The notes beneath the pieces were generated by a model. That model saw nothing but the letters and a program-made list of their open reading frames with translations. It did no database searches and was not told the DNA's origin. This document shows, one piece after another, positions 29,712 through 32,915 of a stretch of 33,477 nucleotides of DNA (within the stretch, counting starts at the first letter, position 1; each line of letters starts with the position of its first letter). The position numbers and the translations under genes were made by a program. Where the stretch lies: contig JARIDA010000031.1 of assembly GCA_029257065.1 (NCBI GenBank), positions 1 to 33,477 of the forward strand. The letters are read 5' to 3'. The stretch comes from Tissierellaceae bacterium. Lineage in GTDB: Bacteria > Bacillota > Clostridia > Tissierellales > Tissierellaceae.

Positions 29712-31406
29712 TCAACCCTTTAAACTTTCAGACATCTGAATCATTTCTAATGCATGTTTAAGTGTAGTGTCTGTTAGGTCTACCCCACCAATTAATCGGG
29801 CTAATTCTTCGACTCTTTCCTCAAGATTTAACTTGTGTATATAAGAGCCAGTCTTATTATCAGATACCTCTTTACCTATTACATAATGACTATCAGCTAA
29901 GGCTGTAATCTGCGGTAAGTGAGATATACAAATTACTTGATGATTCTGTGAAATATTATAAATTTTTTCTCCTACTATTTGAGCTGTTCTACCTGAAATA
30001 CCCGTATCAATTTCATCAAATATCATGGTTTGAATATTATCATATTTTGCCAAAATACTTTTAAAAGCTAACATTATTCTAGACATTTCTCCTCCTGATG
30101 CAATCCTAGAAAGAGGTTTCAAACTTTCACCTATATTAGGTGAGATTAAGAATTCTATTCTATCCAATCCGTTTAATACATAATTATCTAATCTTTTAAA
30201 GTCAACTTTAAATTTAATTTCATCCATATTTAATAATTCTAACTCATTTTGAATTAAAACTTCTAATTTTTTTGCAATATCTTTTCTCATACTTGTTAAA
30301 TTTTCACCCTTGGAATTTAATATAGATTCTATTTTTAAAATCCTAGACTTAACTTCTTTTATTTCCTTTTCTTGATTTAATAGAACTTCTAATCTCTTTT
30401 TTGCATTGGATTCATAATCCAATATTTCTTCTATTGTATTTCCATATTTGTTTTTCAATCTATTTATAAAATCTAGTCGTTTTTCTAATTCCATAAGTTG
30501 TTCATTACTAAAATTTATATCTTCTATGAAATTTATACATTCTAAGTTTAAATCCTTTAATTCATATTGTAAACTTTTGAATCTTTTAAATATTTTATAA
30601 ATATCTTTATCTAAATCATTAATTTTCTCTAATTCAATAGAATGACTATTTATTTTATCAATTATTCCAATTGACTCAAAGTCATTGCCATTAAAAGAAT
30701 TAAATACATTTGAAAATACTTCTATTATATTATTAACGCTCTTCATTTTTTTATATTCATTTTCAATATTTGCATCTATTGCAATATCCAAATTAGCTTC
30801 CTGTATCTCATCAATTTGAAAGTTAAGCATATCAATTTCTCTATCTCTTTCCATAAGATTCAAGGAGATACTATCTAAATGTTGTTTTTCTTTTTCTAAT
30901 AATTCATAATTATATTTAAAAGCTTCTTTAACTTCCCTAAAAGATTTATCTCCAAAAGAATCTAAAAGTATTCTATGATTACCTATATTTAATAATGATT
31001 GGTTTTGATGTTGTCCAAAAATATCAACTAAATTCCTTGTTATATTGTTTAGCATTGATAAATTTACATTTTTACCATTAATCTTCGAAAGACTTGGTCC
31101 TGTTTTAGAAATTTCCTTGCTTATTATTAATAATCTATCAGAATCTACTATAATTCCATATTCTTCCAACAAGCAATCTAAATCATTAATATTATCTAAA
31201 AAAAATACAGCTTCTAATAATGATTTTTCTTCACCAGTTCTTATGAAGTCTTTATTAGATCTAGAACCTAGTAAGATACCTAATGCATCTATTAATATGG
31301 ATTTACCTGTTCCAGTTTCTCCTGTTATTATATTAAGTCCTTTAGTAAATTTAACATTTAAATCTTCTATTATTGCAAAATTACTAATATTAAGTTCTAG
31401 TAACAT
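29712..31406 (-). CDS. recN: DNA repair protein RecN
   Basis: GETGTGKSILIDALGILLGSR, ASGGEMSRIMLAFK, FDEIDTGISGRTAQIVGEK. Confidence 0.97.
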   Translation of the reverse strand: MLLELNISNFAIIEDLNVKFTKGLNIITGETGTGKSILIDALGILLGSRSNKDFIRTGEEKSLLEAVFFLDNINDLDCLLEEYGIIVDSDRLLIISKEISKTGPSLSKINGKNVNLSMLNNITRNLVDIFGQHQNQSLLNIGNHRILLDSFGDKSFREVKEAFKYNYELLEKEKQHLDSISLNLMERDREIDMLNFQIDEIQEANLDIAIDANIENEYKKMKSVNNIIEVFSNVFNSFNGNDFESIGIIDKINSHSIELEKINDLDKDIYKIFKRFKSLQYELKDLNLECINFIEDINFSNEQLMELEKRLDFINRLKNKYGNTIEEILDYESNAKKRLEVLLNQEKEIKEVKSRILKIESILNSKGENLTSMRKDIAKKLEVLIQNELELLNMDEIKFKVDFKRLDNYVLNGLDRIEFLISPNIGESLKPLSRIASGGEMSRIMLAFKSILAKYDNIQTMIFDEIDTGISGRTAQIVGEKIYNISQNHQVICISHLPQITALADSHYVIGKEVSDNKTGSYIHKLNLEERVEELARLIGGVDLTDTTLKHALEMIQMSESLKG

Positions 31407-31425: not shown

Positions 31426-32232
31426 TTATTTTAAACTCCTATGAGATTTTTCTATAACATCTAATATATCTCTATCTTTTAATTTCTCTTGATTTATATC
31501 CTCTTTATTCTTAAAGTATAATAAAAATTCTATATTACCTTTTGCACCTGTTACGGGAGAGAAATCCAGTTTTTTTACATAGAAATCTATAGAGTCAATA
31601 AACTCTAATATTTCTTTTAAAACTTTAAAGTGAATATTTTTATCATTTATAATTCCACCTTCACCAACCTCTGATTTTCTAGCTTCAAATTGTGGTTTGA
31701 CCAATGCTACTATCTCACCTGATTCCTTTAATAGTTCTTTTAATACTGGTAATACAAGTTTCAATGAAATAAAAGATACGTCTATTGTTATAAAATCCAG
31801 GTCTTCTTTTATATCCGATCTTTTAACCTCCCTAATATTAGTTCTCTCCATAACAACAACTCTTTTGTCATTTCTTAACTGCCAAGCTAACTGACCATAT
31901 CCCACATCAACAGCATATACTTTTTTAGCACCCTCTCTTAACATGCAGTCTGTAAAACCTCCTGTCGAAGATCCTACATCCATTGTTACTTTATCCTCTA
32001 ATCTTATATTGAAAAGTTTTATGGCTTTCTCTAATTTTAGCCCTCCCCTTGATACAAAATCATGTTTACCTTTTTTAATATATAAATCAGAGTTATTATC
32101 TATATTATGTCCTGGTTTATCTACTTTTTCATCATCAGCATAAAATAATCCTTGCATTATTAAACTTTGAGCCTCTTTTATATTTTTTACCATTCCACTT
32201 TCCAAAAGTACTTTATCCGCTCTCTCTTTCAT
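31426..32232 (-). CDS. tlyA: TlyA family RNA methyltransferase/hemolysin
   Basis: S4-like N-terminus, DVGSSTGGFTDCMLREGAKKVYAVDVGYGQLAWQLR, VKPQFEA. Confidence 0.96.
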   Translation of the reverse strand: MKERADKVLLESGMVKNIKEAQSLIMQGLFYADDEKVDKPGHNIDNNSDLYIKKGKHDFVSRGGLKLEKAIKLFNIRLEDKVTMDVGSSTGGFTDCMLREGAKKVYAVDVGYGQLAWQLRNDKRVVVMERTNIREVKRSDIKEDLDFITIDVSFISLKLVLPVLKELLKESGEIVALVKPQFEARKSEVGEGGIINDKNIHFKVLKEILEFIDSIDFYVKKLDFSPVTGAKGNIEFLLYFKNKEDINQEKLKDRDILDVIEKSHRSLK

Positions 32233-32859
32233 CTATTTCTCCTTATTATTTTTTCTCATCTTTTTATCTTTTTTTTCTTTTATATCTTTCTTGTCCTTTA
32301 ATAAATTTATACCAAATTTTTCATCTAAAAAATATAATATTTTAGACACAAAGAATATTATTTCTTCATTATAATTCATTCCTAGGTCTTTTCCAAAAGC
32401 TTTTCCCCCAACTGTTAATGAAGCTACTAATGAGGTTAACAATATTGACAATACAACACCATTTAAGTCTTTATATATCGTTATTACATTAAACATTATA
32501 TTTGTACTTATAGCCCCAGAAATTATTCCACTTATATCTCCTATAACATCATTACAAAAGTTTGATACCTGTGATGCATTTCTTACCAATTTTATTGCAT
32601 GTCTGGCTTCTTTGATTCTATTTGAAGCCATTGAGTGAAAAACTTGTTCTCCACCAGTTGCCACAGCAATACCTATGACATCAAAAACTATACCTATTAA
32701 AACAATCGATAATAAAACTATAAATGACATAAATACATTTAAATTTTCCACTAGTCTCTCACTCACTACAGTAAAAACTATAGCCATTAAAAAAGTCCAA
32801 ATACTTATTAAAACAATCCATTTTATATTATATTTCTCTTTAAATGATTTTTTTTTCAT
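32233..32859 (-). CDS. oapA: OLE-associated protein A (OapA)-like membrane protein
   Basis: About four TM segments, DVIGIAVATGGEQVFHSMASNRIKEARHAIKLVRNASQVSNFCNDVIGDISGIISG signature, Lys-rich C-tail; directly downstream of the OLE-like RNA, directly upstream of tlyA. RBS aaggagga. Confidence 0.85.
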   Translation of the reverse strand: MKKKSFKEKYNIKWIVLISIWTFLMAIVFTVVSERLVENLNVFMSFIVLLSIVLIGIVFDVIGIAVATGGEQVFHSMASNRIKEARHAIKLVRNASQVSNFCNDVIGDISGIISGAISTNIMFNVITIYKDLNGVVLSILLTSLVASLTVGGKAFGKDLGMNYNEEIIFFVSKILYFLDEKFGINLLKDKKDIKEKKDKKMRKNNKEK

Positions 32860-32875: not shown

Positions 32876-32915
32876 AATAAATAGCTGATAGCCCTAGGGC
32901 TATCAGCTATTTATT
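32876..32915 (-). terminator. Perfect 40-nt palindrome plus U tract between the OLE-like RNA and oapA
   Basis: aataaatagctgatagccct/agggctatcagctatttatt, perfect; followed on the minus strand by TTTG then the oapA RBS. Confidence 0.8.

Follow-up and report, generated by a model that had tools for sequence, protein, structure and literature searches.

The window, which is the whole stretch of 33,477 nucleotides analysed here, ends inside an OLE RNA gene, and its minus strand carries at this locus the gene order ole-oapA-tlyA-recN. The oapA gene (OLE-associated protein A; 32233–32859, minus strand, with the stop codon included at 32233) begins with an ATG that has GGAGG a few bases to its 5' side, and encodes a protein of 208 amino acids. 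This open reading frame had been singled out in an earlier note made from the letters of the DNA; we confirmed it on the minus strand and found all the segments quoted there, letter for letter. Directly after oapA starts a gene for a tlyA-type S4/FtsJ rRNA methyltransferase (31426–32232, minus strand), recognized by both Pfam and NCBIfam, and the next gene of the cluster is recN (29712–31406, minus strand; NCBIfam TIGR00634, 507 bits). This order agrees with published work in which ole is grouped with genes for translation and DNA repair.

The OLE RNA gene lies directly upstream of oapA on the minus strand (33477–32903), where the covariance model RF01071 matched with 450.4 bits (E 2.9e-129), above its gathering score of 50. 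The match covers model positions 17–616, and the 16 positions missing at the 5' end are accounted for by the end of the contig. At the junction of the two genes there is a hairpin followed by a U-run (32876–32915, minus strand), with arms GCTGATAGC and GCTATCAGC; its 5' arm and the end of the Rfam match overlap.

Assembly breaks inside OLE were observed at the window end (33477) and also in genomes G062 (L174, L175), G067 (L176, L177) and G103 (L178). Split OLE genes in these three genomes were considered and rejected, since the pieces overlap and stop at runs of N or at contig ends. Because several assemblies have contigs that stop within OLE, the RNA may be under-counted or seem to be split.

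Co-occurrence of OapA and OLE

To survey the family, an alignment-based search of named genomes was used, which returned 564 relatives spread over Bacilli and Clostridia, 80 of them kept; a single-sequence scan of the same genome collection found none. Residue conservation was assessed on 113 OapA proteins and their loci. Of the 150 genomes of the same order that were analysed, 64 have both OapA and OLE and 86 have neither, and in the named loci that were scanned, from both Bacilli and Clostridia, OLE was found just upstream of the OapA gene in 20 out of 20. A lack of co-occurrence with OLE, which the earlier note had named as evidence against its own assignment, did not occur.

Other known partners were less evident. 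Our searches of the window's own genome, which is 92% complete, gave no match to an OapC candidate (L7Ae family), these searches being weak, and no clear KOW match for OapB with a 32-position KOW model that is itself insensitive. An L7Ae-family protein was found in most of the family members sampled, and its absence here may reflect the incomplete genome.

The biochemistry has been described for Halalkalibacterium halodurans, in which OapA is published to bind OLE at about two proteins per RNA and to localise the RNA to the membrane. Binding takes place near P2 and P4a, and both the localisation at the membrane and the stress phenotypes depend on the protein; the RNA also forms dimers and may be membrane-spanning (PMC12265935, PMC12286853).

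Conserved residues and relationship to CNNM transporters

The window protein is about 40–63% identical to its OLE-adjacent relatives, the closest relative found (L005) being 62% identical. Residues D60, D104, D108, S114, G115, T149-V-G-G-K153, G156 and K157 (TVGGKxxGK) are invariant in all 113 OapA proteins. They include the DxxxD signature D104-V-I-G-D108 (32536–32550, minus strand) at the start of helix 3, D60 in helix 2 (32680–32682, minus strand), and the motif T149-VGGKAFG-K157 at the end of helix 4 (32389–32415, minus strand), in which K153 replaces the conserved Glu of the CNNM motif FGExxPK. Published work gives two hallmarks of OapA, the DxxxD signature and a missing CNNM proline (PMC11332333), and the window protein agrees with both, since D104 and D108 are present and the proline conserved in CNNM proteins is absent.

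An AlphaFold2 model built on 42 homologues (mean pLDDT 84.4) has long helices at residues 12–37, 42–68, 95–128 and 134–162, which correspond to four predicted membrane helices, followed by a further helix and by a basic tail of low confidence (pLDDT about 60–66). The earlier note had described a conserved-looking patch lying between helices. This holds for HAIKLVRNA, which is a linker in the model, but the rest of the patch is intramembrane, with DVIGIAVA in helix 2 and VSNFCNDVIGDISG starting helix 3; most of the patch falls within these two helices, at positions of the CNNM ion site.

There is no family model for OapA in either Pfam or NCBIfam. The window protein has no NCBIfam match and reaches only 16.3 bits with Pfam CNNM (PF01595), below the gathering score of 28.4, so the suggestion that the gene is under-annotated and the ribonucleoprotein could be missed is plausible. 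Similarly weak CNNM matches were found in 31 of the 42 aligned OapA proteins, and comparison of the OapA profile with CNNM by hhalign gave a probability of 93% (E 3.5e-7), pairing OapA helices 2–4 with CNNM helices 1–3. Sequence searches of the PDB found no match, either with the single protein or with the profile, and the fold search alone reached CorB: the top Foldseek entries were MtCorB (7m1t/7m1u) and CorC (7cff/7cfg), no others having meaningful probability. As the E-values are modest (best 3.7e-3) and the TM-scores are near 0.44, the kinship is a distant one. Both the profile comparison and the structural model had been proposed in the earlier note; the first matches CNNM/CorB, the second gives four helices in a CNNM/CorB-like fold, and placement in an unrelated family, which the note had set against its reading, was not obtained. 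By profile and model, the window OapA is a distant relative of the membrane domain of CNNM (CorB/CorC/MpfA) Mg2+ transporters, with one extra N-terminal helix.

In the profile alignment D60 is paired with the Ser of FFSASE and D108 with an Asn of GNN, and FGExxPK has its invariant Glu opposite K153 and its Pro opposite G156; OapA reads G-K153-A-F-G156-K157 here, and the FGExxPK motif is not present in the window protein. The invariant Lys at K153 (32401–32403) opposite an invariant Glu stands alongside the changes of Ser and Asn to Asp. We take the aligned CNNM positions (Ser, Asn, Glu, Pro) to belong to or border the Mg2+ site, and their replacement suggests that the ion site of OapA was rewired rather than copied; Lys in place of Glu argues against a copied Mg2+ transport mechanism. 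The CBS pair and the CorC/HlyC domain are absent, and the membrane domain of this 208-residue protein is followed just by a helix and the basic tail.

Full-length MpfA-type CNNM proteins were detected in 36 of the 64 OLE-positive genomes versus 83 of the 86 OLE-negative ones (p about 1e-9, phylogeny ignored), which repeats the published anticorrelation. The window's own genome runs against this general trend: it encodes an MpfA-type protein of 448 amino acids with a strong CNNM domain (L002, C108:3128-3682), which coexists with OLE and OapA.

Identity of the protein and role of the lysine-rich tail

Taken together, the adjacency to OLE, the co-occurrence, the invariant residues and the published hallmarks identify the protein as OapA. 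The OapA-like identity proposed in the earlier note is borne out: the RNA is adjacent, the co-occurrence is perfect, the signature residues are present and the fold is CNNM-like. The gene is OapA proper, beyond merely OapA-like. The explanation that accounts very probably for the locus as a whole is that the gene is an OapA ortholog and the obligate protein partner of OLE RNA. OapA and OLE form an already described system, of which the window gene is a member with no variant feature.

A small CNNM-type Mg2+ exporter, for which the OLE neighbourhood is a mere operon convenience, would be in agreement with the profile and fold kinship to CNNM, and the lower frequency of full CNNM proteins in OLE-positive genomes is consistent with a shared function. 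We regard this as very improbable, however, given the perfect co-occurrence with an RNA gene, the missing CBS and CorC domains, the replacement of CNNM Ser, Asn, Glu and Pro by D60, D108, K153 and G156, the published binding of OapA to OLE, and the report that in H. halodurans function is lost on deletion of OLE alone. It is of negligible probability that this is an unrelated, low-complexity membrane protein with a mere resemblance to OapA: no family model names the window protein and the single-sequence PDB search was empty, but its identity to OLE-adjacent relatives and the invariant polar and glycine residues that it has in common with them speak against chance resemblance, and the alignment together with the co-occurrence with OLE refutes it.

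The lysine-rich tail (residues 186–208; 32236–32304, minus strand) was found exactly as quoted in the earlier note, LLKDKKDIKEKKDKKMRKNNKEK. In a comparison of the C-termini of 28 minus-strand open reading frames of the window, it ranked first in both net charge (+7) and number of Lys (11). Among the 113 OapA proteins the stretch beyond residue 185 has a median charge of +5, reaching at least +4 in 73 of them, and is absent or neutral (at most +1) in 21; the charge is often kept, the sequence and length are not. As a feature of the family, the proposed extra RNA contact of the tail finds no support. L005, the closest relative found, and also L111, L115 and L142 lack the tail and still have OLE directly upstream, which indicates that the tail is not required and is no defining RNA contact. 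Judged on these comparisons, it is neither special to the window protein nor required for the partnership with OLE.

The tail may nevertheless touch RNA in this species. In its strongest form, this idea makes the tail a dedicated contact, flexible and cytoplasmic, which binds OLE domain 1 and strengthens anchoring. The retention of positive charge while the sequence changes favours such a contact, as does the predicted topology, which puts both termini and the basic linker that joins helices 2 and 3 on one side of the membrane. We think it unlikely, given the 21 tails that are absent or neutral, four of them in the OLE-adjacent loci named above, and given that basic cytoplasmic ends are ordinary in membrane proteins, as expected from the positive-inside rule. 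The tail could add non-specific affinity in the window protein.

For OapA as the partner of OLE, we propose the following mechanism. As published for H. halodurans and other OLE ribonucleoproteins, an OapA dimer would sit in the membrane, bind OLE RNA near P2 and P4a and so anchor the RNA there, and the complex would help with divalent-metal and other stress. D60, D104, D108, K153 and K157, located in or at the ends of helices 2–4 at CNNM ion-site positions, would be the core machinery, and the Lys tail a cytoplasmic accessory, often conserved in charge and variable in sequence, with at most a weak electrostatic affinity for RNA or lipid. Few structured bacterial RNAs that lack a known biochemical task are as large as OLE, which seems always to have OapA as its partner; the residue map, with D60, D104, D108, K153 and K157 constant in 113 proteins and the Lys tail not, gives experimenters targets for mutation.

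The junction hairpin and comparison with known systems

Beside this known system lies a less expected find, the hairpin between ole and oapA. It is perfect, with a folding energy of -28.9 kcal/mol (z -6.7), and was not listed by a simple terminator scan. Its core (32884–32907) is conserved in the clade: GCTGATAG and CTATCAGC, the arms of the core, are present in 56 of the 113 OapA loci when a single change is allowed, and the hairpin lies upstream of oapA in L005, L006, L017, L030, L034, L064 and others. Among 52 distinct sequences, conservation is 98–100% at all but one of the 16 arm positions, and T occupies on average 5.9 of the 8 positions that follow. In three loci the ninth pair is T-A instead of C-G; the arm spacing (5–18 nt) and the upstream flank vary.

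The strict pattern is present in 41 of the 150 genomes of the order, one copy each, and in 40 of these 41 it is at the 3' end of ole. In a class-wide sample, 10 of 116 OLE-positive genomes had a looser pattern at the 3' end of ole and 9 of 291 genomes had it at other sites, so the looser form has a background. The hairpin was not seen in the Bacilli loci examined, and it is a clade feature. A generic terminator used throughout the clade was rejected on account of the single strict copy per genome and its place at ole, and a DNA operator is disfavoured because the spacer between the 8-nt arms is variable and a U-run follows. No complementarity of 7 nt or more was found between the hairpin arms and the OLE body.

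The one exception to the strict pattern, G136 (L182/L210), has neither OLE nor OapA and keeps the hairpin with tlyA on one side and, on the other, a gene that looks like a polyprenyl synthetase from motifs read by eye; this is the site of ole-oapA in its relatives. Four other OLE-negative genomes have a hairpin before tlyA with one or two arm changes (L194 in G023, L201 in G095, L204 in G079 and L212 in G083), and this resembles the footprint of a joint loss of ole and oapA. Exact arms were counted in 48 of 56 cases with OLE versus 1 of 5 without it (Fisher p 0.004), a comparison of few, related genomes obtained in different searches. In our reading of these sequences, the hairpin would be the ole terminator, its exact sequence mattering while OLE is present; after loss of ole and oapA the hairpin seems to stay and its sequence to drift.

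For H. halodurans, a discrete OLE RNA has been ascribed to its own promoter and presumed processing (PMC9723947). We found no description of the hairpin in the open papers searched. We tentatively propose, with rather more doubt than confidence, that in Tissierellales and nearby anaerobes the hairpin (GCUGAUAGC-loop-GCUAUCAGC with U-run), which lies outside the Rfam model, terminates the OLE transcript and is in addition recognized through its sequence, for example by a protein or the ribonucleoprotein, setting the ratio of OLE to OapA. The idea is simple and testable, and concerns how an operon could yield a discrete RNA of about 600 nt in a set proportion to its protein.

With intrinsic terminators the hairpin shares a stable G+C-containing stem, a short loop and the U-run; it differs from them in an arm sequence that is almost invariant across many families and in a strict form that is found solely at the ole locus in 40 of the 41 genomes having it. 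The CNNM domain of MpfA, CorB and CorC (PF01595; 7m1t, 7m1u, 7cff) resembles OapA in the alignment of helices and is its best fold match in the PDB, whereas OapA has the extra N-terminal helix, a Pfam score below the cut-off, Asp in place of Ser and Asn, Lys in place of Glu and Gly in place of Pro, lacks the CBS and CorC domains, and is tied to an RNA gene. OapA of H. halodurans (WP_010898928.1) and its relatives (PMC11332333, PMC12265935) share with the window protein a gene that follows directly downstream of ole, a prediction of four membrane helices, DxxxD, the absence of the CNNM proline, a CNNM-like fold and near-strict co-occurrence with OLE RNA. The tail of the window protein (23 residues, +7) falls inside the limits seen in the family, 0–27 residues and charges of -1 to +11.
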